Shown here: positions 7,545-52,869 of the stretch, in pieces
Layout: each line of letters starts with the position of its first letter
Numbering within the stretch: position 1 is the stretch's first letter
Source of the DNA: Brevibacillus laterosporus LMG 15441
GTDB taxonomy: Bacteria; Bacillota; Bacilli; Brevibacillales; Brevibacillaceae
Direction: 5' to 3'
Length of the DNA: 64,000 bases
Assembly: GCF_000219535.2 (NCBI RefSeq)
Contig: NZ_CP007806.1
Location: forward strand, 1,832,501 to 1,896,500
The notes under the pieces: model-generated
The model's database searches: none
What the model was told of the DNA's origin: nothing
Seen by the model: the letters and a program-made list of their open reading frames with translations, nothing else
Position numbers and translations under genes: made by a program

Positions 7545-8054
7545 ACAAGCCGGCTTTAGAACCTTATCTCCCGATGCTAGATTTTTCAGAAAAAACATAC
7601 AATGAGAGCATTGTACTATGAATCATGCATCTATCAGGTATAGATAGGGCATGGTTTAGTGAACTATTTGCCCTCTGTTTTGATGTATGACCAACCTTCT
7701 GAATTGCACTGATTAGAAAGACATTATACAGACTCTTGGTTTTTATCTAGAATATTCAGAATGAATAACCTATTTGGTTTACTTTACCTAAGTAGTACAA
7801 TAACGCATAAGATTTAGGGAAAGAAACAATTGGTTCATTTCATGTGAATAGATAACTAAGATTGGATAATAGCTTTCATGCAGACATGGACAGACAGCGT
7901 ATGCTCGAAAACTGTCGAATATTGTAAAATGCTTGCTTGAAAAATGATGATCGCTTGTACAGTAGCACAATCATATATTCACATATGGTCATCTAAGATG
8001 CACCAAGGTGGATTGTGTAGAGATAGTAGAAATCTTTTTAAGGGGGAATGAGGT
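7545..8054. other. Intergenic leader before the opp operon
   Basis: About 510 bp without a convincing gene. It presumably carries the opp promoter and leader, but I could not pick a well-spaced -35/-10 pair. No tRNA-like or T-box-like landmark was recognised. Confidence 0.4.
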
Positions 8055-8987
8055 TTGCTCCGTTACCTTGGTAAACGTATTATTTTTATGTTTGTTTCTT
8101 TGTTTTTAATTGTTACCGCGACTTTTTTCCTGATGCATTCAATTCCGGGTGGACCATTCACCGGTGAACGTAATGTACCACCAGAAATTCAAAAAGCGCT
8201 GGAAGCAAAGTACAATCTGGACTTACCGATTAGTCAGCAGTACCTGTTGTACTTGAAAGGGATTGCTACTTGGGATTTGGGTCCATCCTTTACTGAGAAA
8301 TCATCAACGGTTAATGATATGATCAATCGTGGATTTCCTGTATCAGCACATTTAGGTCTACAGGCTTTATTAGTCGCTATTTTTGGCGGAATTTCCTTGG
8401 GTGTAATTGCAGCTCTCTATCATAATAAATGGCAGGATTATAGTGCCATGCTGATTGCTGTGCTTGGACTTTCGGTACCTAGCTTTATCCTTGCAAGTTT
8501 TTATCAATATTTCTTCTCGATTGAGCTTGGATGGTTCCCGATTGCAAAATGGGAAACTTGGAAGCATACTGTTTTACCAACATTCGCGTTGGCAGCAAGT
8601 CCACTAGCCTTTATCGCGCGTCTGACTCGTTCTAATATGATTGAAATTATGGGACAAGATTATATTAAAACAGCTAAATCTAAAGGATTAAGTACTTTCG
8701 TTATCACAGTAAAACATGCGATCCGAAATGCACTTTTACCTGTTATTACTTACTTAGGACCTTTGTCTGCTAGCATTTTGACTGGGGCTTTCGTAGTTGA
8801 AAGAATTTTTGGTATTCCTGGTCTTGGTAGAGAATTTGTTATATCCATTACGAATCGTGATTATACGGTTATCATGGGTACAACCGTCTTCTATGCGATG
8901 ATACTTGTAGTCATGGTTTTGATTGTGGATATTGCCTATACATTGATTGACCCACGCATTAAGCTTGGCGATGTTGGAAGGGAGTAG
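8055..8987 (+). CDS. oppB: Oligopeptide ABC transporter permease OppB
   Basis: 310 residues starting at TTG 8055 after GGGGGAATGAGG. N-terminal hydrophobic anchor, the PGGPF segment and the EAA loop ([20 protein letters not shown]) closely follow OppB, and the C-terminus [15 protein letters not shown] is typical. It is a membrane channel subunit for peptide uptake. In Bacillus the Opp system also imports Phr-type signalling peptides, relevant to the regulator/peptide pair at 25.1-26.5 kb. Confidence 0.93.
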
Positions 8988-14444: not shown

Positions 14445-15614
14445 ATGAAAAGATTACTTCATGTTTTTCTCTGTTTGGTTACTTGCATAACCATGCTTAC
14501 TCCAGGGCTAGCTTCTGCAGAAGAGTCAAAACCTAATATGGCTCCGCATGCAAAATCAGCGATCCTAATGGAGGCAGATTCCGGAACCATTCTGTTTGAA
14601 AAAAATGCGCATGAGAAACTACCGCCTGCAAGTATCACTAAGGTAATGACCTTGTTATTGATTTTTGAGGCGATGGAACGAGGAGAAGTAAAGCTAACCG
14701 ACAAAGTTCGTACCAGCGAACGAGCTGCTTCCATGGGCGGATCTCAGATTTTCTTGCAGCCTGGTGAAGAGATGACAGTGGAGGATATGGTGAAAGGGAT
14801 TGCTATTGCTTCTGGAAATGATGCTGCAGTTGCTATGGCTGAGCATATCGGAGGAACAGAAGAAGCGTTTATCAAGAAGATGAATGAACGAGCTGCCCAA
14901 TTAGGTTTAAAAAATACACACTTTATTAACTGCAACGGATTACCCTCCCCAGATCATTACACAACTGCCTCTGACATTGCAATCATGTCGCGTGAGCTGT
15001 TAAAACATGAAATAATTACTAAATATACCGGCATCTATCAAGATTATCTACGAAAAGACAGTGCCAGCCCATTCTGGTTAGTTAACACGAATCGACTTGT
15101 TCGATTTTATGACGGAGTAGATGGCTTGAAGACGGGTTACACCTCGGAAGCCAAATTTTGTATTACAGCAACAGCAAAACGTAAAAATATGCGCGTAATT
15201 GCTGTTGTATTGGGTGAACCCGATACCAAGGTAAGAAATAAAGAAATTACTGGTATGTTTGATTATGCCTTTAATCATTATCAAGTACATCCCATATATA
15301 AAAAAGGGGATGTTATTCAACAGCTTTCTTTGGATAAGGGAGAAGAAACGAAGGTAAACGTTGTGACCGAACAGCCTGTTAGTCTTCTTTTGAAAAAGGG
15401 AGAAAATCCTAATGCATTTGTAAAAGAGATTACACTTGCTAGTGAGGCAAAAGCTCCGATTAAAAAGTCAAATGTAGTGGGCCATATTTTTATCAAAAAA
15501 AATGGTAAAGAAGTAGCCCGAATTGATTTGTATCCAGAGAAAACCGTTGAACGAGCCAATATGTGGGACATACTCAAAAGAACAACCCAGAAGGTAATGT
15601 TTACCTATCGCTGA
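14445..15614 (+). CDS. dacF: D-alanyl-D-alanine carboxypeptidase DacF (sporulation penicillin-binding protein)
   Basis: 389 residues with signal peptide (about 1-25, ending ASAEE) and the three serine-peptidase motifs of class-C low-molecular-mass PBPs: SITK (SxxK), SGN and KTG (GLKTGYTSEAKFC). It removes the terminal D-Ala from peptidoglycan stem peptides and in Bacillus tunes cross-linking of forespore cortex. It lies directly upstream of the spoIIA operon as in B. subtilis. Start ATG 14445 follows GGAGGT. Confidence 0.94.
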   Translation: MKRLLHVFLCLVTCITMLTPGLASAEESKPNMAPHAKSAILMEADSGTILFEKNAHEKLPPASITKVMTLLLIFEAMERGEVKLTDKVRTSERAASMGGSQIFLQPGEEMTVEDMVKGIAIASGNDAAVAMAEHIGGTEEAFIKKMNERAAQLGLKNTHFINCNGLPSPDHYTTASDIAIMSRELLKHEIITKYTGIYQDYLRKDSASPFWLVNTNRLVRFYDGVDGLKTGYTSEAKFCITATAKRKNMRVIAVVLGEPDTKVRNKEITGMFDYAFNHYQVHPIYKKGDVIQQLSLDKGEETKVNVVTEQPVSLLLKKGENPNAFVKEITLASEAKAPIKKSNVVGHIFIKKNGKEVARIDLYPEKTVERANMWDILKRTTQKVMFTYR

Positions 15615-15627
15615 AATTACGAAAAAT

Positions 15628-15668
15628 GTCGAGAATGTCCACTTTTGTAGAGGCTTCTCGACTTTTTT
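15628..15668 (+). terminator. Intrinsic terminator between dacF and spoIIAA
   Basis: GTCGAGAA and TTCTCGAC are separated by 19 nt and followed by T6. It implies that spoIIAA has its own promoter or is reached by read-through. Confidence 0.7.
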
Positions 15669-15750
15669 GTTCTTTTGTCGGCTGGGAGGATTTGGTTTAT
15701 TGAATAGAGAAAAAGAGAGACATCAACGGGAGAAGGAGTTGTTCCAAGTT

Positions 15751-16101
15751 ATGAGCTTGCACATTGAAATGGAGACCTTACGTGAGGTCCTGTTGGTCCG
15801 CCTGCAAGGGGAGCTGGATCATCACACAGCGGAAACTTTGAGGAACCGTTTAGACACCGCTATCAAGGATGAGCAGATTCGTCATGTGGTCCTCGACTTG
15901 GAGGACTTGACCTTCATGGATAGCTCAGGAATTGGTGTGATTTTAGGGAGATACAAACAAATTACAGCGCGTTCTGGTGAGGTATTTGTCTGTTCCATTA
16001 ATCCAACCATTTATCGCATTTTTGAAATGTCAGGTTTGTTTAAGGTATTAAAGTACAAAGAGCATGTATCAGATGCTTTGGACGTACTGGGGGTGGCATA
16101 A
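15751..16101 (+). CDS. spoIIAA: Anti-sigma F factor antagonist SpoIIAA
   Basis: 116 residues, STAS domain. The phosphorylatable serine lies in [15 protein letters not shown]. Unphosphorylated SpoIIAA binds SpoIIAB and releases sigma F in the forespore. Start ATG 15751 gives the standard length and follows AGAAGGAG; upstream in-frame codons are an unlikely extension. Confidence 0.96.
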
Positions 16102-25055: not shown

Positions 25056-26339
25056 ATGAGTGTAAGTCTAACTTTCACAACATTGGGGGAACTGATAAGG
25101 AAGAAAAGAATTGAAATGGGAATTAGCTTATCGGAATTAGGGAGAATGATAGGGATTAGTAAAGGGGTTTTATCAAAGATTGAATCTGGAGATACGAAAC
25201 GTCCAGAGCTTCGGACATTAAAACCGATTGCAGATGCTTTAGAAATTCCTTATGAAGAGATCATTGAGTGCTATGTTGAAATAGAACATCGAATCGAAGT
25301 CTTAAATGATATATTGCAATTGTGTCTTGAAGTCTCAAGTTCTTCTTTGACGACTAAGGTGGCAACGAAATTCCTTGAAAATTCTAAGGAAGAAACATAT
25401 GTATTATTAGAGCAGGTATATAATCTAGCCAATAAAGCCGTAAACAATGAGGTTAGATTGTCGCTGTACAATACAATTATTAAATATGCAAGAGTACACG
25501 GCATTCCCATGTACATAGCCAAACCGTCATTACAAAAATACCTAATCGAAAGACAAGATTTAAAAAAGATGGAGGAGTCATTTAAAATTGGTGAAGAGGT
25601 TGTTCACTATGCAGATTTTTTGACTGAAGAGGAGCGGATCATTTTATATTTTAGAATGGCGCTTCAAGCATATGCTATAAAAAAATACGAAACATGTATT
25701 GAACTATGTCAAGCTGGAATTACTCTTGAAAAAAAGGATACTGAGCTGAAGGCTAGAGCATATTTAGCTATGATTAACTCATATTCTGATTTACATAATT
25801 ATGACTCTGTTGAAGATTTGATTGATATTTTCGAAAATTTTAAACATGAATTTGTTCGAGAATCATCCATGATTACACGAGCTATCACTAAAGCTAAAAA
25901 GAAAGAGTATGAGATAGCGATTCCTATGTTAAAAAAATTTATTGATGAATTAAGTAAGGATAATAAAATACATGTAGTAAATGAACTGCTTGGGATATAT
26001 GTTCATTTTAACATTGTTGAGTCAATACATGAAATAATAAACAGAGAAAGGGAATTACTTCCGGATAATGCATATACACCGTATAAATTAACATCACTTG
26101 CAAGATATTACCGTCAAAAAGCTGCTTTTCAAATAAGCAAAGGACTTCTAGAAGAAGGTATGGATAGCTACATTAACAGCATAACGACATACGGGAAAAT
26201 AAATGATTATAACGAGATAGTAGAATGCTTACAGAAAATTTTCGAATATTTCTCGAAAAATTCAAAGCCAATTGATTTGCACTATGTAAAACAGTTAGAA
26301 GAAGCGTATAATGAAATAAATGGAAAAAAGAGTAAGTGA
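25056..26339 (+). CDS. RRNPP-type quorum-sensing regulator: XRE helix-turn-helix plus TPR repeats
   Basis: 427 residues. Residues ~8-65 are an XRE DNA-binding domain (LGRMIGISKGVLSKIESG); the remainder is helical with TPR-like repeats (RIILYFRMALQAYAIKKYET, TELKARAYLAMINSYSDL). This is the layout of NprR, PlcR and AimR: cytoplasmic regulators that bind a re-imported peptide. The next gene, 13 bp on, encodes a short secreted peptide, the classical arrangement of regulator and cognate signal. Ribosome site GGAAGGGGA. Targets are unknown; the Spo0E-like gene and secreted proteins that follow are candidates. The nearest subfamily cannot be settled from sequence by eye. Confidence 0.85.
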   Translation: MSVSLTFTTLGELIRKKRIEMGISLSELGRMIGISKGVLSKIESGDTKRPELRTLKPIADALEIPYEEIIECYVEIEHRIEVLNDILQLCLEVSSSSLTTKVATKFLENSKEETYVLLEQVYNLANKAVNNEVRLSLYNTIIKYARVHGIPMYIAKPSLQKYLIERQDLKKMEESFKIGEEVVHYADFLTEEERIILYFRMALQAYAIKKYETCIELCQAGITLEKKDTELKARAYLAMINSYSDLHNYDSVEDLIDIFENFKHEFVRESSMITRAITKAKKKEYEIAIPMLKKFIDELSKDNKIHVVNELLGIYVHFNIVESIHEIINRERELLPDNAYTPYKLTSLARYYRQKAAFQISKGLLEEGMDSYINSITTYGKINDYNEIVECLQKIFEYFSKNSKPIDLHYVKQLEEAYNEINGKKSK

Positions 26340-26352
26340 AAGGAGGATTCCA

Positions 26353-26490
26353 ATGAGGAAAAAAATTGTTCTAATGTTATTAACTTTAGGATTAATTACA
26401 AATATGGGTTTTGCCTTGGTTAAAACAGATGAGGCAAATAATCTGAACACTTTCAGTATGCGTGCTAATAATGCTGATCCGGGCTATTGA
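26353..26490 (+). CDS. Quorum-sensing signal peptide precursor (45 aa), probable partner of the RRNPP regulator
   Basis: 45 codons behind AAGGAGGATTCCA. N-terminus MRKKIVLMLLTLGLITNMGF is a secretion signal; the C-terminal tail ends SMRANNADPGY. Phr/PapR/NprX-type precursors have this size and layout, are exported, trimmed to a C-terminal 5-10-mer and re-imported by Opp. The mature signal is thus probably within the last ~7 residues (NNADPGY); the exact cut is inferred. It is followed directly by a terminator, so regulator and peptide form one unit. Confidence 0.8.
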   Translation: MRKKIVLMLLTLGLITNMGFALVKTDEANNLNTFSMRANNADPGY

Positions 26491-26776: not shown

Positions 26777-26950
26777 ATGAAAACAGAAAATTCTCAACTA
26801 AAAAATGATTTACAGAAGCTTATAGAACTCCTCCGTAAAGAATTAGAGATGTTGTATTACAAAGAAGGCTCATTTGTACACCCAACCGTACTACAAATGA
26901 GCCAACAACTAGATGAGTACATCGTTATGTTTGAGAAGATTAGACATTAG
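26777..26950 (+). CDS. Spo0E-family aspartyl-phosphate phosphatase
   Basis: 57 residues (MKTENSQLKNDLQ...). It shows the Spo0E-family pattern: LIELLRKELEMLYY helix, acidic-hydrophobic spacer, then the signature SQQLDEYI. These small two-helix proteins dephosphorylate Spo0A-P and delay sporulation. No Shine-Dalgarno sequence is visible before ATG 26777, so expression may be low or the mRNA leaderless. Next to a quorum-sensing pair, it offers a route from peptide signal to sporulation timing; that link is inference. Confidence 0.75.
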   Translation: MKTENSQLKNDLQKLIELLRKELEMLYYKEGSFVHPTVLQMSQQLDEYIVMFEKIRH

Positions 26951-32088: not shown

Positions 32089-33942
32089 TCATCGGTTTCT
32101 GAACAAATCATAAGCCGGCCAATCTTTGATGCGCCCAATAATCGTCCACACCAGGTTGTCGAGGTCGGTCCGCATTTTTTCCAATTGTGTGTCGTTACGA
32201 GAGTTGACTAACACGGCCCAACAATATCCGTGATGTGTCCGCATAACGATAGAAGTCGAACCTGGTATGTCTCCATCATGAAAATAATTACCTGAAGAAT
32301 CAATGGCCCATCCCTTTGCGTAATTTGAAGGGCTTCCATCTATTCTTGGTGCAGTCGTGGTTGTGTACATTGTCGCTAGGGATCCTCTGTTCAGGATGTC
32401 CGGCTTAGAGGCGAAACGATCGACGCGAACGAGGAAACGAACGAGATCCGTTGCAGACGCAATCCACCCTCCATGTGCGTCCATGCGAGAAACCCGGATC
32501 GTGTAAGGATTCCATCTGCTTTGCGGGTAATATACAACTTCGTTCGGCGATCCGCGAGAGTGTCACCGGCAATATGCATATCCGTAATACCGCAGGGCGC
32601 GAGGACGTGCTGTCGAACATAGTCAGCATAGGACATACCTGAAACGCGTTCAATCACTCGACCGAGCAGCAAGTAACCAAAGTTGAGATAATCGAAAGTC
32701 CGTCCCGGCACATAAGTCAATGGTGCGTTATCGTCATCAAGCATCCATGTGATAAGGCTCGTCTTGATTTAAGTTGAAATGGCTAAACATCGGATCCTGT
32801 TTTTGCGCCCAGCCGCTGGTATGTTCTAGAAGATGTTGTACCGTTATTTGGTGAATATTTTTGCCATATGGCTGTTTTCCGTAAGTGGTACCGAGGATAG
32901 CGTTTGGACCAAACACTCTATCGCCAAGATTTAGCCGTCCAGCTTCGATCAATTTAAACACCGCTACCGAAGTAATCGGTTTCGAGACGCTGGCTATTCT
33001 AAAGAGGTGATTGGTTCTGACTGGTTCATTGGTTGCTTGATTAGCAAGGCCAAATCCTTGAGCGAAGACTAATCGCTCTTGGTAGGTGAGAGCTAGTGAT
33101 ACTCCTGGGATCCTGTGATTGTTCATGAAGGTCGTCACAGTCTGCTGGATGAACGCTAGGTCACTATCGGACAAGTAAGGCTTGTGCCATATTACTGCAT
33201 ATCGCACTTCTCCGCGCAATGGATGTCCATTAACCTGAACTAGACGGAATCCCCTAGACAGCATGGAATTAAACTCAGTTTGGTACTCAGCAGGACTCAG
33301 GCCGTGGCGGGCTGACCATGTGAGATCTGGTCCTTTGATCCAAATCACCGCATAATAGTTTTGGCTGGCAACCTCGTATCCACTTACGCGCCACAGTATA
33401 AATCCTTGGTTGCTCCAGTGGTTGAACTCAGCCTGGTACTGAGCAGAGCTCAGGCCATGGCGAGCGACCCAATTGACGATTGGAGATTTATCCCAAATTG
33501 TTGCGAATCGAGGCTGACCAGCTACGGTATACCCGCACAGGTCTATTAGTCGAAACCCTTGCGAAATAAGGTTGTTAAATTCGGCTTGATATTGAGCTGC
33601 GGTCAAGTCATGGTGAGCGAGCCACTCCGGACCGGCCGTTTTTTCCCAGAGAGATGCGTAGCGATCTCTGCCGGTTACTTCATAACCGCTTACTCGGACT
33701 GGACGGTATCCTTTAGCAGTCATGGTCCTAAATAAGGCTTGATGATCTGCGGAAGATAGTCCGTGCCGAGCCTGCCACTCCGGACCTGGCGACTGTTCCC
33801 AGACAGCAGCATAACGATCGACTCCATCTACTCCGAAACCGCTAATATCGATGAGTCGATATCCTTGGGATACTAGTGAGTTGTATTCAGCTTGAAATTG
33901 GTTGGATGTAAGTCCGTGCCGGGCCTGCCATGCATATGCCAT
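32089..33942 (-). pseudogene. Serine hydrolase (class C beta-lactamase fold) with five N-terminal tandem repeats, broken by two frameshifts
   Basis: Start ATG 33942 after AGGAG. Residues ~1-255 are five ~48-residue repeats of the type WQARHGL(S/T)..Q..F..L...G(Y/F)R....SGY...G..RYA..W, as in bacterial tandem repeat domain 1 of polyglycine-hydrolase-like proteins. Then a beta-lactamase/transpeptidase fold: SVSKP (SxxK serine), LLEHTSG, then YLNFGYLLLG (Tyr motif) in another frame. Breaks lie near 32750 and 32515; they compensate, so the third part (MDAHGGWIASATDLVRFL to the end) returns to the first frame. G+C is clearly higher than in the flanks, suggesting transfer. As is, it stops after about 401 residues. 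Confidence 0.85.
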
Positions 33943-34648
33943 ATAACACACTCCTAATAACATTGTCTGATGGAAATAAAGTATTAAAGTACGTTGATGC
34001 GTGTTTCTGAGTTGGAAACCTTAATTACTTTATTTTCAATAGTTATTATTATGCTTTATTACTCTGAAGTTAGTATAGTTTAATGGATACCTTTTAGTTA
34101 AATCCTTACAATGAAACCAAGAGGAGATGAGTCCAGATGGACATATGCTTTAATAAATCTTCTCGTAATATCCCTTTACTTCAAAGGAGATCCGTAGCTT
34201 TGCCTAGATAAAGGGATGTTACAAGAGTTTGCAAAACGGGAGCTCAATGTGAAATCACTAATAATTCAGCGTATTCTCAATAGCGGTATTGGGGGTAGGT
34301 GTAAGGTGTATCTGACCAAGATCTCTATCCGATATAAACGAGGCTTAAACATTCAATATTGTTAGTATTTGATAACAATAGAAATATCCAAAGAAGAAGA
34401 AGGAGCGATAAATGCTCCTTCTTTTTTATAAATCGGGATCATTTGAATCAAAGAGAGACCTCTCATCCATCCCGGTACTATATCCCAATAGTAGAATGTA
34501 CACGTCTTTACACGTTAAATTGTTTAGTTATTAACTTTTTTTGATAAAAGTTGTATGTGTCTTCGTTTCTAACGGTTACCCTTAGCGGAGTGAAGACTGG
34601 TTATTTTTATGGGACAGAACTCCTTAACGTTGTATATCCGCGTTTAAC

Positions 34649-36936: not shown

Positions 36937-37705
36937 ATGAAAAAATTTCTTTTATTATTTTTGCTTGTAGGGACAATAGGGGTATATACGCTTTATATAG
37001 ATTATTTTTCAATGGAGTAATATTTCTGACTTTATAAGACATAATCCTGGAGTTCGCTTTACTCATCTGGGTTTGTAGCTGTCTCGATAGAATTTCTTTC
37101 GGTTTATCCGATCCTATAAAGGAGGCTGCTTCATTGTATCTTTCTGCAATAAGAGAATCATAGTAACTCTTCATTATTTCCTCTACCTCATTCTTTATTG
37201 AAGAATTTTTTACCTCTTTAGTATTTAATAAATGATAAGTATTATTTCGATTTGCACTTTCTTTCGTGTATAGAAACATTGGGTAATAAAAGAAGATAAT
37301 ATTTTAGAAATTACAAAGCTTGATTACAAAATTACAACGGATGATAGCTCAATTCATATAGGAGCTATTAAAAAACAAGAAGATACGACTGGCCAATATT
37401 TAGCTATTTCGCTAGTGAACAAGAGCAATAAACAATATATTAAGGTAGGGGATAAAGAAGTTCCATATGCGATCATTAGGAGCAAACATATACCAGTTCA
37501 AAGATTAATGATTCCTCCTAATCAAAGTGCTCAAATATTAATACCGTTTAATGAGAAAGTTACTCCAGATCATCTAGAACTAATGGAATTCTATAGAAGT
37601 AAGGCTGAAGGGGTACCGATAAATAAAATAAGCATCTACATATCGTTAGTAGAAGATGATATTAACTTTAATACAAACCAGCTCTCCTATATGGAAGGAT
37701 TTTGA
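36937..37705 (+). pseudogene. Membrane-anchored protein broken by an internal 262-bp inversion
   Basis: Three pieces fit one protein. Piece 1 (36937-37014, after AGGAGG) encodes the anchor MKKFLLLFLLVGTIGVYTLY. Piece 2 reads on the minus strand from 37276 down to 37015 (NEVEEIMKSYYDSLIAERYN, NTF2-like in style). Piece 3 reads on the plus strand from 37277 (EDNILEITKLDYKITTDDSS ... to 37705) but has no start codon. Joining at the flanking CAATG/CATTG keeps the frame at the first junction and needs a one-base change in an A-run at the second. The current DNA encodes only a 27-aa peptide from the start. Confidence 0.65.
37015..37276 (-). repeat. Inverted segment flanked by CAATG / CATTG
   Basis: The coding-like frame switches to the minus strand exactly across this interval. 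The flanking 5-bp sequences are CAATG (37010-37014) and CATTG (37277-37281), an inverted repeat suitable for a small inversion. Confidence 0.6.
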
Positions 37706-37743
37706 ATTATCTTATCGGAAGGTGTAGCAAGGAGGTGAATTGG

Positions 37744-37854
37744 ATGAAGGCACATAACGGATCAGGTTGGAGTTATGAAAGTTTTCAAGAGTGGAAACTT
37801 TGTATAGAACCTGAATGGAGTTATTGGGTGGCTACTACTAAATATCTAAATTAG
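37744..37854 (+). CDS. 36-aa Trp-rich peptide with an EPEW motif
   Basis: ATG 37744 after AAGGAGGTGAATTGG, a near-perfect ribosome site. Sequence begins MKAHNGSGWSYESFQEWKL and continues CIEPEWSYWVATTKYLN. No secretion signal. It shares EPEW with the next ORF. Unknown function; with its strong ribosome site it is likely translated. Possible signalling or modified-peptide precursor. Confidence 0.6.
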   Translation: MKAHNGSGWSYESFQEWKLCIEPEWSYWVATTKYLN

Positions 37855-37871
37855 TCAAGGAGAGGGTACTT

Positions 37872-38024
37872 ATGACAGAACCTGAATGGGTTTTTGATTC
37901 AAGTTGGCGTGATGATCCTAGATACCATCTAAGTGAGGACGTACTTATGGCAGAGCCTGATTGGTCGATTCAATACACATGCATTACAAGTGACCCCAGT
38001 TGGTCCGATGAACCTGGTTATTAA
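37872..38024 (+). CDS. 50-aa peptide made of two tandem M-x-EP[E/D]W units
   Basis: ATG 37872 after AAGGAGAGGGTACTT, 17 bp after the previous peptide. The protein has two copies: MTEPEWVFDSSWRDDPRY, then MAEPDWSIQYTCITSDPSWS and a final DEPGY. The DNA before the internal Met (GTGAGGACGTACTTATGGC) also resembles the leader of the first (GGAGAGGGTACTTATGAC), so ribosome site and peptide were duplicated together and an ancestral stop was lost. The second unit could be translated by itself from ATG 37947. No homologue recognised. Confidence 0.6.
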   Translation: MTEPEWVFDSSWRDDPRYHLSEDVLMAEPDWSIQYTCITSDPSWSDEPGY

Positions 38025-51568: not shown

Positions 51569-51608
51569 TAATTTTCCCTCTTTTTAATAGTTTGAAAGGA
51601 TGATTGTA

Positions 51609-51917
51609 ATGATAGGTGATGTGTTAAAAAAAACTCGAGCAATCTATGGATACAAAGCAACTGAGATGAGTTCTATGCTTGGAATTTCCAATAGTTACCT
51701 GTCAGAGATAGAAAATAACAAAAAGCAGCCGTCATTAGAACTACTTCAAAGATACTCGGAAATTTTAGGTGTTAGACTGTCGTCATTAATATTGCTTTCT
51801 GAAAATTTAGAAGATGCGACCAAGCGAAATAAGAGTCAGGAATTTATAAAAAAAATGATGCTTGGGTTAATTAATTCAATGTCAAAAGATAAGGGTGCTT
51901 TTGATGAGTCTGAATAA
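51609..51917 (+). CDS. XRE-family helix-turn-helix protein of the retron
   Basis: 102 residues from ATG 51609, 8 nt after AAAGGA. The N-terminal 60 residues are an XRE domain (EMSSMLGISNSYLSEIENNK); the tail is helical. Retrons with a small helix-turn-helix partner form a described class (type VI in the accessory-based scheme, from memory). The stop overlaps the RT gene by 14 bp, so both are co-translated. It may repress the unit or act with the RT and its DNA. Confidence 0.8.
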   Translation: MIGDVLKKTRAIYGYKATEMSSMLGISNSYLSEIENNKKQPSLELLQRYSEILGVRLSSLILLSENLEDATKRNKSQEFIKKMMLGLINSMSKDKGAFDESE

Positions 51918-52869
51918 AAAAAGATATGATATTAATCAATGCGCTTTATATAAATGTAAAGGCAAAAACCGTTTAGCATATCTTCTTCACATGAAAAAAG
52001 AAGAATTTGATAAACTTGAAAAATTGATAGAGTATTACTCATTTACTACAGATAAAAATGATGGAGATAAAAGACTTATAACCGCTCCTAAAAATAACTT
52101 AAAACGGATTCAAAAACGAATATTAAAATTAATTACATTTGTCAAGAGACCCGCCTGGCTTATTTCAGGTGAACGGGGAAAAAGTTATATTGACAATGGG
52201 AAATTTCATCAGCAATCACACTATCTTTTAACAATGGATATTAAGAAATTCTACGAAAATTGTAAGAGAGAACTTGTGTACAGATTCTTTAGATATACAT
52301 TGTGTATGTCTGGTGATATTGCTCATATTCTAACTAATATAGTTACACTTGAGCAAAAAATACCGACAGGATGTCCAACTAGTCAATTAATAGCGTATTA
52401 CGCATATCAAGAAATGTTTGAGAATATAAATGAAATTGCTAATAAATATAATTGCTTTTTTACATTGTACGTCGATGATATGACTTTTTCTAGTAAAGAG
52501 CCATTTAATCCTAACAAACTTAAAAATGAAATTGATATTGAACTGAGAAAATATGGTCATAAGCCGAAATATAGTAAAGTCCAATATTATTCAAGAAAAA
52601 GCAATAAGCTGGTTACTGGCGTTGTTATTTCAAAAGACCATAAGCTTTTGGTAGCTAACAAATTACAGAAGAAGATATATGATAATGCCATGCAATTGAA
52701 GAAAGTAAATGGTAATAATAAAGATGCTAAGATAGCGTATCAATTAGAAAGGGATCTTCGTTCATTAAAAGGACAATTACAGGCTGCAAAGAATGTTAAT
52801 ACAAGAATATTCCCAGAAATAAACCGCTTGGTAGAAAATACTATAGTTGATTTGTCGAAATCCAAATAG
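51904..52869 (+). CDS. Retron-type reverse transcriptase
   Basis: 321 residues from ATG 51904 after AAGGG, the normal size for a retron RT without extra domains. Catalytic motif LYVDDMTFSS (YVDD), motif 3-type TMDIKKFYENC with the first catalytic aspartate, IPTGCPTSQ of motif 4, and the retron-specific VTG (KLVTGVVIS) that recognises the msr. No maturase or endonuclease domain, so not a group II intron protein. It would make a branched RNA-DNA from the upstream RNA; many retrons are anti-phage systems. Confidence 0.9.
   Translation: MSLNKKRYDINQCALYKCKGKNRLAYLLHMKKEEFDKLEKLIEYYSFTTDKNDGDKRLITAPKNNLKRIQKRILKLITFVKRPAWLISGERGKSYIDNGKFHQQSHYLLTMDIKKFYENCKRELVYRFFRYTLCMSGDIAHILTNIVTLEQKIPTGCPTSQLIAYYAYQEMFENINEIANKYNCFFTLYVDDMTFSSKEPFNPNKLKNEIDIELRKYGHKPKYSKVQYYSRKSNKLVTGVVISKDHKLLVANKLQKKIYDNAMQLKKVNGNNKDAKIAYQLERDLRSLKGQLQAAKNVNTRIFPEINRLVENTIVDLSKSK

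Follow-up and report, generated by a model that had tools for sequence, protein, structure and literature searches.

Within a 64,000-nt stretch of the Brevibacillus laterosporus LMG 15441 genome (contig NZ_CP007806.1, positions 1,832,501 to 1,896,500), here referred to as the window, we recognized two small open reading frames (mini-ORFs) that, judged by comparison with related sequences, are the worn remains of a phage cassette. Intact cassettes in Brevibacillus phages consist of consecutive mini-ORFs whose peptides are built largely from units resembling the tails of secreted prepeptides that fit the Alo quorum-sensing family. We consider it moderately probable that this leaderless and receptor-less cassette supplies mimics of Alo pheromones inside the infected cell.

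The window mini-ORFs and their copies

The preliminary description of the locus had reported two ORFs, preceded by excellent ribosome sites, that together encode three EP[ED]W motifs. Both ORFs were found where it had placed them, behind good ribosome sites (Table 1), and all three motifs, IEPEW, TEPEW, and AEPDW, are present, with M-x preceding two of the three. It had further proposed that a ribosome site and peptide were duplicated in the second ORF and then fused. In form this stands, as the internal ATG at position 37947 is preceded by its own ribosome site GTGAGG (positions 37933 to 37938); as for origin, the relatives point instead to two adjacent array members that ran together. The second ORF can be parsed as MTEPEW/VFDSSW/RDDPRY followed by HLSEDVL and then MAEPDW/SIQYTCI/TSDPSW/SDEPGY (divisions are ours), and the embedded ORF MAEPDWSIQYTCITSDPSWSDEPGY aligns without gaps to a 25-amino-acid array member, MTESDWAVQRNCNTGDPGWNADPGH, with 48% identity. 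On these alignments, mini-ORF 2 is two former array members read as one.

Table 1. Positions of the mini-ORFs, the Alo-type locus, and associated features in the window
Feature	Position	Strand	Description
Mini-ORF 1	37744..37854	+	36 aa from ATG at 37744; MKAHNGSGWSYESFQEWKLCIEPEWSYWVATTKYLN
Ribosome site of mini-ORF 1	37730..37738	+	AGGAGGTG, read from the sequence
Mini-ORF 2	37872..38024	+	50 aa
Ribosome site of mini-ORF 2	37857..37865	+	AAGGAGAGG, read from the sequence
Putative former mini-ORF embedded in mini-ORF 2	37947..38024	+	MAEPDWSIQYTCITSDPSWSDEPGY
Repeated stretch	37442..37603	+	Repeated with 94% DNA identity upstream of the second copy of the 50-aa ORF in this genome
HTH-TPR receptor, Alo type	25056..26339	+	HTH_3, 3.3e-13; predicted-structure matches
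Secreted prepeptide of the window receptor	26354..26490	+	45 aa, hydrophobic leader, ends NADPGY
Spo0E-like gene behind receptor and prepeptide	26777..26950	+	PF09388, E value of 1.3e-12

Mini-ORF 1 was found by a profile of the first array member (A1) at an E value of 6.5e-5. The first member in viral contig L023 (MKAHNGSGWTFESFPEWK...) and in phage Emery (MNAHNGSGWTFESFPEWK...) begins with M[KN]AHNGSGWTFESFPEWK, and because mini-ORF 1 (MKAHNGSGWSYESFQEWK) shares this start, we regard it as the counterpart of the first member of the arrays. Its C-terminal part has lost the match to the first member of intact arrays, and the window copy contains no exact prepeptide hexamer. The pN/pS ratios of the 50-aa ORF ranged from 0.08 to 0.36 in three pairs, the changes being too few to show continued use. 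Collectively, the window copy is best described, from its sequence, as a fused and decayed remnant of the phage cassette, and it may be dead. The Rfam search of the window returned nothing at the gathering threshold.

The 50-aa ORF occurs a second time in the same genome (G000:C1:2447652, 92% identity), once in a further Brevibacillus genome (G029, 94% identity), and in truncated form in a third one (G030, 94% identity over residues 15 to 50). The stretch repeated upstream of the second copy overlaps a 96-aa ORF with no function assigned. Outside the genus, the search of 39 family genomes gave only matches at E values of 0.08 to 0.10, and no match was obtained in the plasmid and phage collections. 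Weaker matches of the 50-aa ORF in G029 and G030 (41 to 44% identity) turned out to be tandem arrays. Since the 50-aa ORF recurs in relatives and the motif occurs in eight distinct arrays, the observation made in the window is more than chance. The motif, the starts, and the ribosome sites all recur in relatives; a lack of such conservation of motif or start codon would have refuted the preliminary description.

The first-member profile, which finds only arrays that have a first member, matched 3 of 398 genomes of the class, all of this genus; among the genomes searched, the arrays are thus restricted to one genus by sequence match. Array DNA used as the query retrieved one phage record, Emery, and no plasmid, while the first member used as a protein query retrieved Emery and one other match that we judged to be chance. 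A contig scan with the single stretch [VT]FESFPEW yielded seven stretches and one relative. A looser ribosome-site pattern brought up, in addition to known arrays, five viral contigs (L024 to L028) that look unrelated to the arrays; L024 contains, at positions 1305 to 2230, a tandem series of genes about 75 aa long that all begin with MTEPDW behind a strong ribosome site and seemingly represent a different tandem family. A stop-to-start pattern gave, besides known arrays, one locus (L103) that proved to be a chance match on inspection.

Worn copies of the cassette were found in the window and at L003, L005/L016, L006, L109, and L133. A degenerate receptor pseudogene lies within a few hundred bases behind decayed arrays in L003 (positions 7629 to 8340) and L016 (13866 to 14966), hinting that some elements once carried both an array and a receptor. 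Elsewhere in the window, an HTH gene and a reverse transcriptase (positions 51600 to 52869) match models of retron type VI (HTH_VI, 1.3e-31; RT_VI, 2.7e-92), and a hydrolase-like gene with repeated W-ARHGL segments is split over several frames on the negative strand (32089 to 33963).

Mini-ORF arrays in Brevibacillus phages

Eight distinct arrays were found in Brevibacillus prophages and viral contigs, including the GenBank phage Emery. Each comprises three to seven consecutive mini-ORFs of 11 to 48 aa with their own ribosome sites and no signal sequence, and together they hold 41 members, 38 of them distinct. The ribosome-site rule of our script selected 39 of the 41, and two, both in L022, were added by eye; we dropped a fifth L023 member that is truncated where the stretch ends, did not count the array of L020, which equals that of L010, and kept the decayed arrays (window, L003, L005, L006, L109, and L133) out of the statistics. 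The G029 array (L010) has five members, MKVTFESFPEWKHSVDPDWDAGPRWKTAPEWTGDGGH, MTDPEWCDDPGH, MMYDKNWHDDPNGIVIWIDDPGY, MTESDWAVQRNCNTGDPGWNADPGH, and MTAPDWTKQRFNDGGIGW, each with its own ribosome site, the G030 array (L011) has six, and six viral contigs bear the same kind of array. The seven members of the Emery array are unannotated in GenBank; two hypothetical genes, gp37 and gp38, are annotated antisense over part of it (L029, 8075 to 8544) and are probably wrong gene calls.

The genes around L010 encode a phage DNA polymerase, ribonucleotide reductase, terminase large subunit, and major head protein, which places the arrays in phages. In one prophage the array lies between the replication genes and the terminase. 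The Emery array follows an annotated amidase at a distance of about 2.4 kb and precedes an XRE regulator and a recombinase. We searched the seven viral records that contain an array, a number of them perhaps fragmentary, for receptors of the window type. Five gave no match at an E value of 0.001; of the other two, one has a 26%-identical relative that lies, in the linear record, about 55 kb away from the array, and the other matches over a short length in the HTH region. Neither this search nor reading of the flanks by eye revealed a cognate receptor adjoining the intact arrays. Likewise, no modification or export gene was recognized by eye in the flanks of L012/L013, L018, L019, L021, and L022. 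The promoter scan of L010 found no positive-strand site between position 775 and the array start, and in Emery sites were no more frequent than expected by chance.

The Rfam search of nine loci found nothing at the arrays; the matches elsewhere were a BsrG-like RNA and parts of group II introns. The BsrG-like RNA, whose namesake is part of a type I toxin-antitoxin pair, lies in Emery (L029, 13289 to 13552; RF01412, 121 bits), as does a gene annotated as accessory gene regulator B (15404 to 15922), a second quorum-sensing type. Directly behind several arrays we observed a conserved stretch (L029, 8600 to 8745; L018, about 2310 to 2455, negative strand; L022, about 670 to 800, negative strand; L109, 1950 to 2080) that is strongly folded in Emery (z score of −3.3), has no Rfam match, and is possibly an undescribed phage RNA. 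Upstream of several arrays, two very small hydrophobic peptides, MVEVVLLVTALVNLATAVVNYRNG... and VETITLVIAVIALVISITALVQAVKKRN, are encoded, as recognized by eye (L021, about 7388 to 7068, negative strand; L023, 486 to 812).

That the peptides lack a hydrophobic leader, as had been noted for the two window ORFs, was evident by eye for these two and was measured for the 38 distinct array mini-ORFs. Their most hydrophobic 12-residue windows reached 1.0 or less, compared with 2.1 or more for the prepeptides, showing that the mini-ORFs, as predicted from their sequences, carry no secretion leader. Comparison of 36 of the 41 members, grouped into six homologous classes with one member per array and class, yielded a pooled pS of 0.458 and pN of 0.151 (ratio of 0.33; 28 array pairs, which are not independent), and this coding pattern shows purifying selection on the array peptides.

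The peptides consist largely of six-residue units of the form xx[DEN]Px[WHYFG], most plainly in members such as MTDPEW/CDDPGH, MAEPDW/HDDPGY/VDDPGH, and MTDPNW/DSGPKW/CDDPGH, which are serial hexapeptides. Successive P.[WHYFG] motifs were spaced by six residues in 30 of 46 cases, by eight in 7, by ten in 8, and by twenty-five in 1, while shuffling with the tail held fixed gave a spacing of six in 4.5 cases on average and 13 at most in 2,000 rounds. The first members of seven of the eight arrays measure 25, 31, 31, 31, 37, 37, and 43 residues when an extra initial Met is excluded, lengths that rise in steps of six; that of the eighth, from L022 (18 aa), does not fit this series.

Alo-type receptors and the tails of their prepeptides

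The resemblance noted earlier between the last residues of mini-ORF 2 and a quorum-sensing prepeptide at 26.4 kb proved real, as this prepeptide ends with NADPGY and is encoded behind an HTH-TPR receptor gene (Table 1). The receptor belongs to the family that we propose as the target of the mini-ORFs. Counting fragments, it has 16 matches in this genome and 22 in G029, and 28 of the 39 family genomes contain it at an E value of 1e-8. A single-sequence scan of the viral contigs for the receptor found nothing; a scan with an alignment (A3) found 21 receptor loci, of which the best 8 were used and 13, matching over only about 50 to 75 residues at the HTH end, were set aside. The phages Sundance and SecTim467 carry receptor/prepeptide pairs, their tails being TDNPGY and TDDPGY.

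We inspected the downstream DNA of the 72 distinct near-full-length receptors (at least 350 aligned residues) whose loci were retrieved; they come from host genomes, phages, and viral contigs. The prepeptides ended with [DN]PG[HYFW] in 46 cases (one of them DLGH), with [DN]PxG in 9, and with x[DE]W in 7, so that these three types account for 62 of the 72; four had another tail, two of which (L089 and L090) are DDPRG tails missed by the rule, and for six no prepeptide was found. A motif scan detected a Spo0E-like gene behind 15 of 68 receptor loci, for which varying lengths of DNA were available. By analogy, the Spo0E-like gene of the window is the probable output of the window receptor.

The structural model of the window receptor, built together with eight viral relatives, reached a pLDDT of 91, compared with 49.5 for the receptor alone. 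It matched PlcR, AimR, and RapF among many unrelated TPR proteins, and the NprR-NprX complex with a Z score of 19.0 (rmsd of 8.1 over 288 residues); the top match was a plant protein (Z score of 20.1). As many other TPR proteins match and a plant protein comes first, the predicted fold agrees with the RRNPP family without singling it out. By their HTH-TPR fold and the leader-bearing prepeptide downstream, the receptors and prepeptides appear to fit the Alo quorum-sensing family.

The mini-ORF units were compared with the tails of 34 prepeptides from this genus and two phages, to which five viral ones were added for the hexamer, tetramer, and hydropathy comparisons. Thirteen of the 83 units reproduce exactly the six C-terminal residues of a prepeptide, whereas column-shuffled units gave a mean of 0.6 and a maximum of 4 in 5,000 rounds; the arrays are related to each other, and the counts are thus not independent. 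The exact matches represent eight distinct tails, HDDPGH, TDDPGY, TDNPGH, TDNPGY, TDNPQG, TGDPGH, VDNPQG, and VVDPGY. At their ends, 29 of the 38 mini-ORFs have the tail tetramer of a prepeptide and 7 of the 38 an exact hexamer, and all three prepeptide tail types occur within the mini-ORFs. The remaining 70 units are not identical to any tail in the set; no exact hexamer occurs in the L010 array, and neither the GGIGW member nor the QR[NY]CNT segment matched a prepeptide tail. The match is specific to the arrays: in 187,657 bp from loci that contain or adjoin them, 40 of 366 ORFs of 8 to 60 aa preceded by a ribosome site end with [DN]PG[HYFW] (nested starts and the duplicate array counted), and all 40 are array members, nested starts, or remnants. 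It should be noted that units of the PEW/PDW and PQG types lie inside the mini-ORF peptides but at the C terminus of the prepeptides and would therefore need an enzyme to cut on their C side.

A proposed quorum-override cassette

Cytoplasmic regulators, RiPP-like cores, and leaderless signals had all been put forward for the window peptides. Because the tails agree with those of many secreted pheromone precursors, a whole family and not a single one, the first and the last of these options gain support, while the RiPP core has found none, as no modification gene was recognized in the flanks read by eye. We infer that the cassette acts by mimicry. The translation product of each mini-gene would be a leaderless peptide, made up for the most part of six-residue units resembling the active C-terminal ends of pheromones, the types copied being DPG[HYFW], DNPQG/DDPRG, and PEW/PDW. 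On the normal route, the pheromone leaves the cell as a prepeptide, is cut down to its last residues, and after re-import is bound by a cytoplasmic HTH-TPR receptor. The cassette would skip both export and import, as its peptides would arise directly in the cytoplasm and act there either whole or as hexapeptides cut by host peptidases. Several host receptors could be occupied at once, and the infected or lysogenic cell would then behave as at high density, whatever its neighbors do, presumably to the benefit of the phage. Agonism seems likelier than antagonism, since the sequence of some units is exactly that of a pheromone tail. Should the receptors behave like AloR13, the ligand would shut off spo0E-like genes and sporulation would be favored.

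The same sequence evidence would also suit peptides that are made in the cytoplasm, freed by phage lysis, and taken up by bystanders through oligopeptide import, where they would announce the phage or force a quorum response in neighbors. Leaderless ligands of the RRNPP family can act between cells, according to PMC10518010, and the array positions, between replication genes and terminase in a prophage and near the amidase in Emery, are compatible with expression before lysis. The data do not separate such release from action inside the producing cell, and the position in Emery does not decide; we regard this explanation, the main rival, as unlikely, if still deserving of some weight. The main targets might instead be the Alo systems of rival phages, such as those of Sundance and SecTim467, and not the host chromosome. 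Phage-borne receptor/prepeptide pairs do exist, and the tails of these two phages are among the exact matches; however, the other six exact tails come from prepeptides encoded in bacterial genomes, possibly within prophages, and we consider jamming between phages quite improbable as the main function.

Two further explanations dispense with pheromone mimicry altogether. The repeated GGAGG motifs and the strongly folding conserved stretch behind some arrays would suit an RNA device in which repeated ribosome sites serve as a sponge or leader independently of any peptide, but the pN/pS ratio of 0.33, the six-residue periodicity, and the tail match would not be expected of it, which makes it very unlikely. 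We give hardly any credence to RiPP or bacteriocin precursors: short, repeated peptides rich in Trp and Pro might recall them, but there is no leader/core layout, the flanks read by eye contained no recognizable modification or export gene, and the identity with pheromone tails would be left unexplained.

Intracellular mimicry, the reading we prefer, would set the cassette beside two known kinds of phage control. Arbitrium employs a phage-used hexapeptide and a TPR receptor, with one secreted peptide serving its own receptor, and the target of paratox is a quorum-sensing regulator. The arrays would resemble arbitrium in the use of hexapeptides and TPR receptors by a phage, and they differ in having many unsecreted peptides and no receptor of their own. 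With paratox they would share interference with a quorum-sensing regulator; paratox is, however, a protein, while the agents proposed here are signal mimics. Arbitrium (AimR-AimP) is a system of Bacillus phages (PMC6458997), and paratox is a phage protein that disturbs host quorum sensing (PMC8383118).

A further close parallel is AloR-AloP. The mature Alo13 pheromone consists of the last six residues of its precursor, the length of the mini-ORF units, and the Alo13 receptor switches on a downstream spo0E-like gene that the pheromone switches off (Voichek et al. 2020, PMC7425212). Alo systems are those of Paenibacillus polymyxa and have been reported also in Brevibacillus and on a B. laterosporus plasmid; the receptor, prepeptide, and Spo0E-like gene of the window follow the Alo13 layout, and the tail motifs of the mini-ORFs are those of the AloP-like prepeptides of this genus. 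Unlike AloP, the mini-ORFs have neither an export leader nor an adjacent intact receptor, and they string together several different units in phage-borne arrays of three to seven. Tiny leaderless ORFs have likewise been proposed or shown to encode RRNPP-family ligands in the LCP (SIP/RopB) class; LCPs are, however, single and lie beside their own receptor, and for phages and prophages PMC10518010 describes no pair of receptor and LCP, whereas the arrays consist of phage-borne concatemers that have no receptor beside them. The tandem Phr propeptides Phr3T and Phr105 also contain several pheromone repeats per peptide, and some are phage-borne, but they are cut by extracellular proteases and paired with the Rap receptor of their own system (PMC11343458), while the mini-ORFs have no leader and no receptor beside them. 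Receptor-less arrays of leaderless concatemers were not found in the literature searched, which left most subscription papers and preprints outside and included the available text of PMC10075063, PMC7425212, PMC9765709, PMC10518010, PMC11343458, and PMC4909266.

In its broadest form, a proposal to which we attach an even chance, the arrays would be a multiplex quorum-override cassette of phages of the B. laterosporus group, in which leaderless mini-genes encode concatenated copies of many different pheromone hexapeptides. These would simultaneously load the cytoplasmic receptors that belong to the host or to rival phages, and six-residue modules would be swapped as the host repertoire changes. 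Phage genes this short (12 to 25 codons) are easily overlooked, as illustrated by the unannotated Emery array with antisense ORFs called over part of it. If true, the proposal would describe a new viral takeover of bacterial communication, by an intracellular cocktail of signal look-alikes and not by a receptor-blocking protein, in which one cassette is set against an expanded receptor family. Many orphan receptors would also gain ligands that are short and genetically encoded, and there would be a handle on the role of large Alo repertoires, as the phage would already have picked the peptides that matter.
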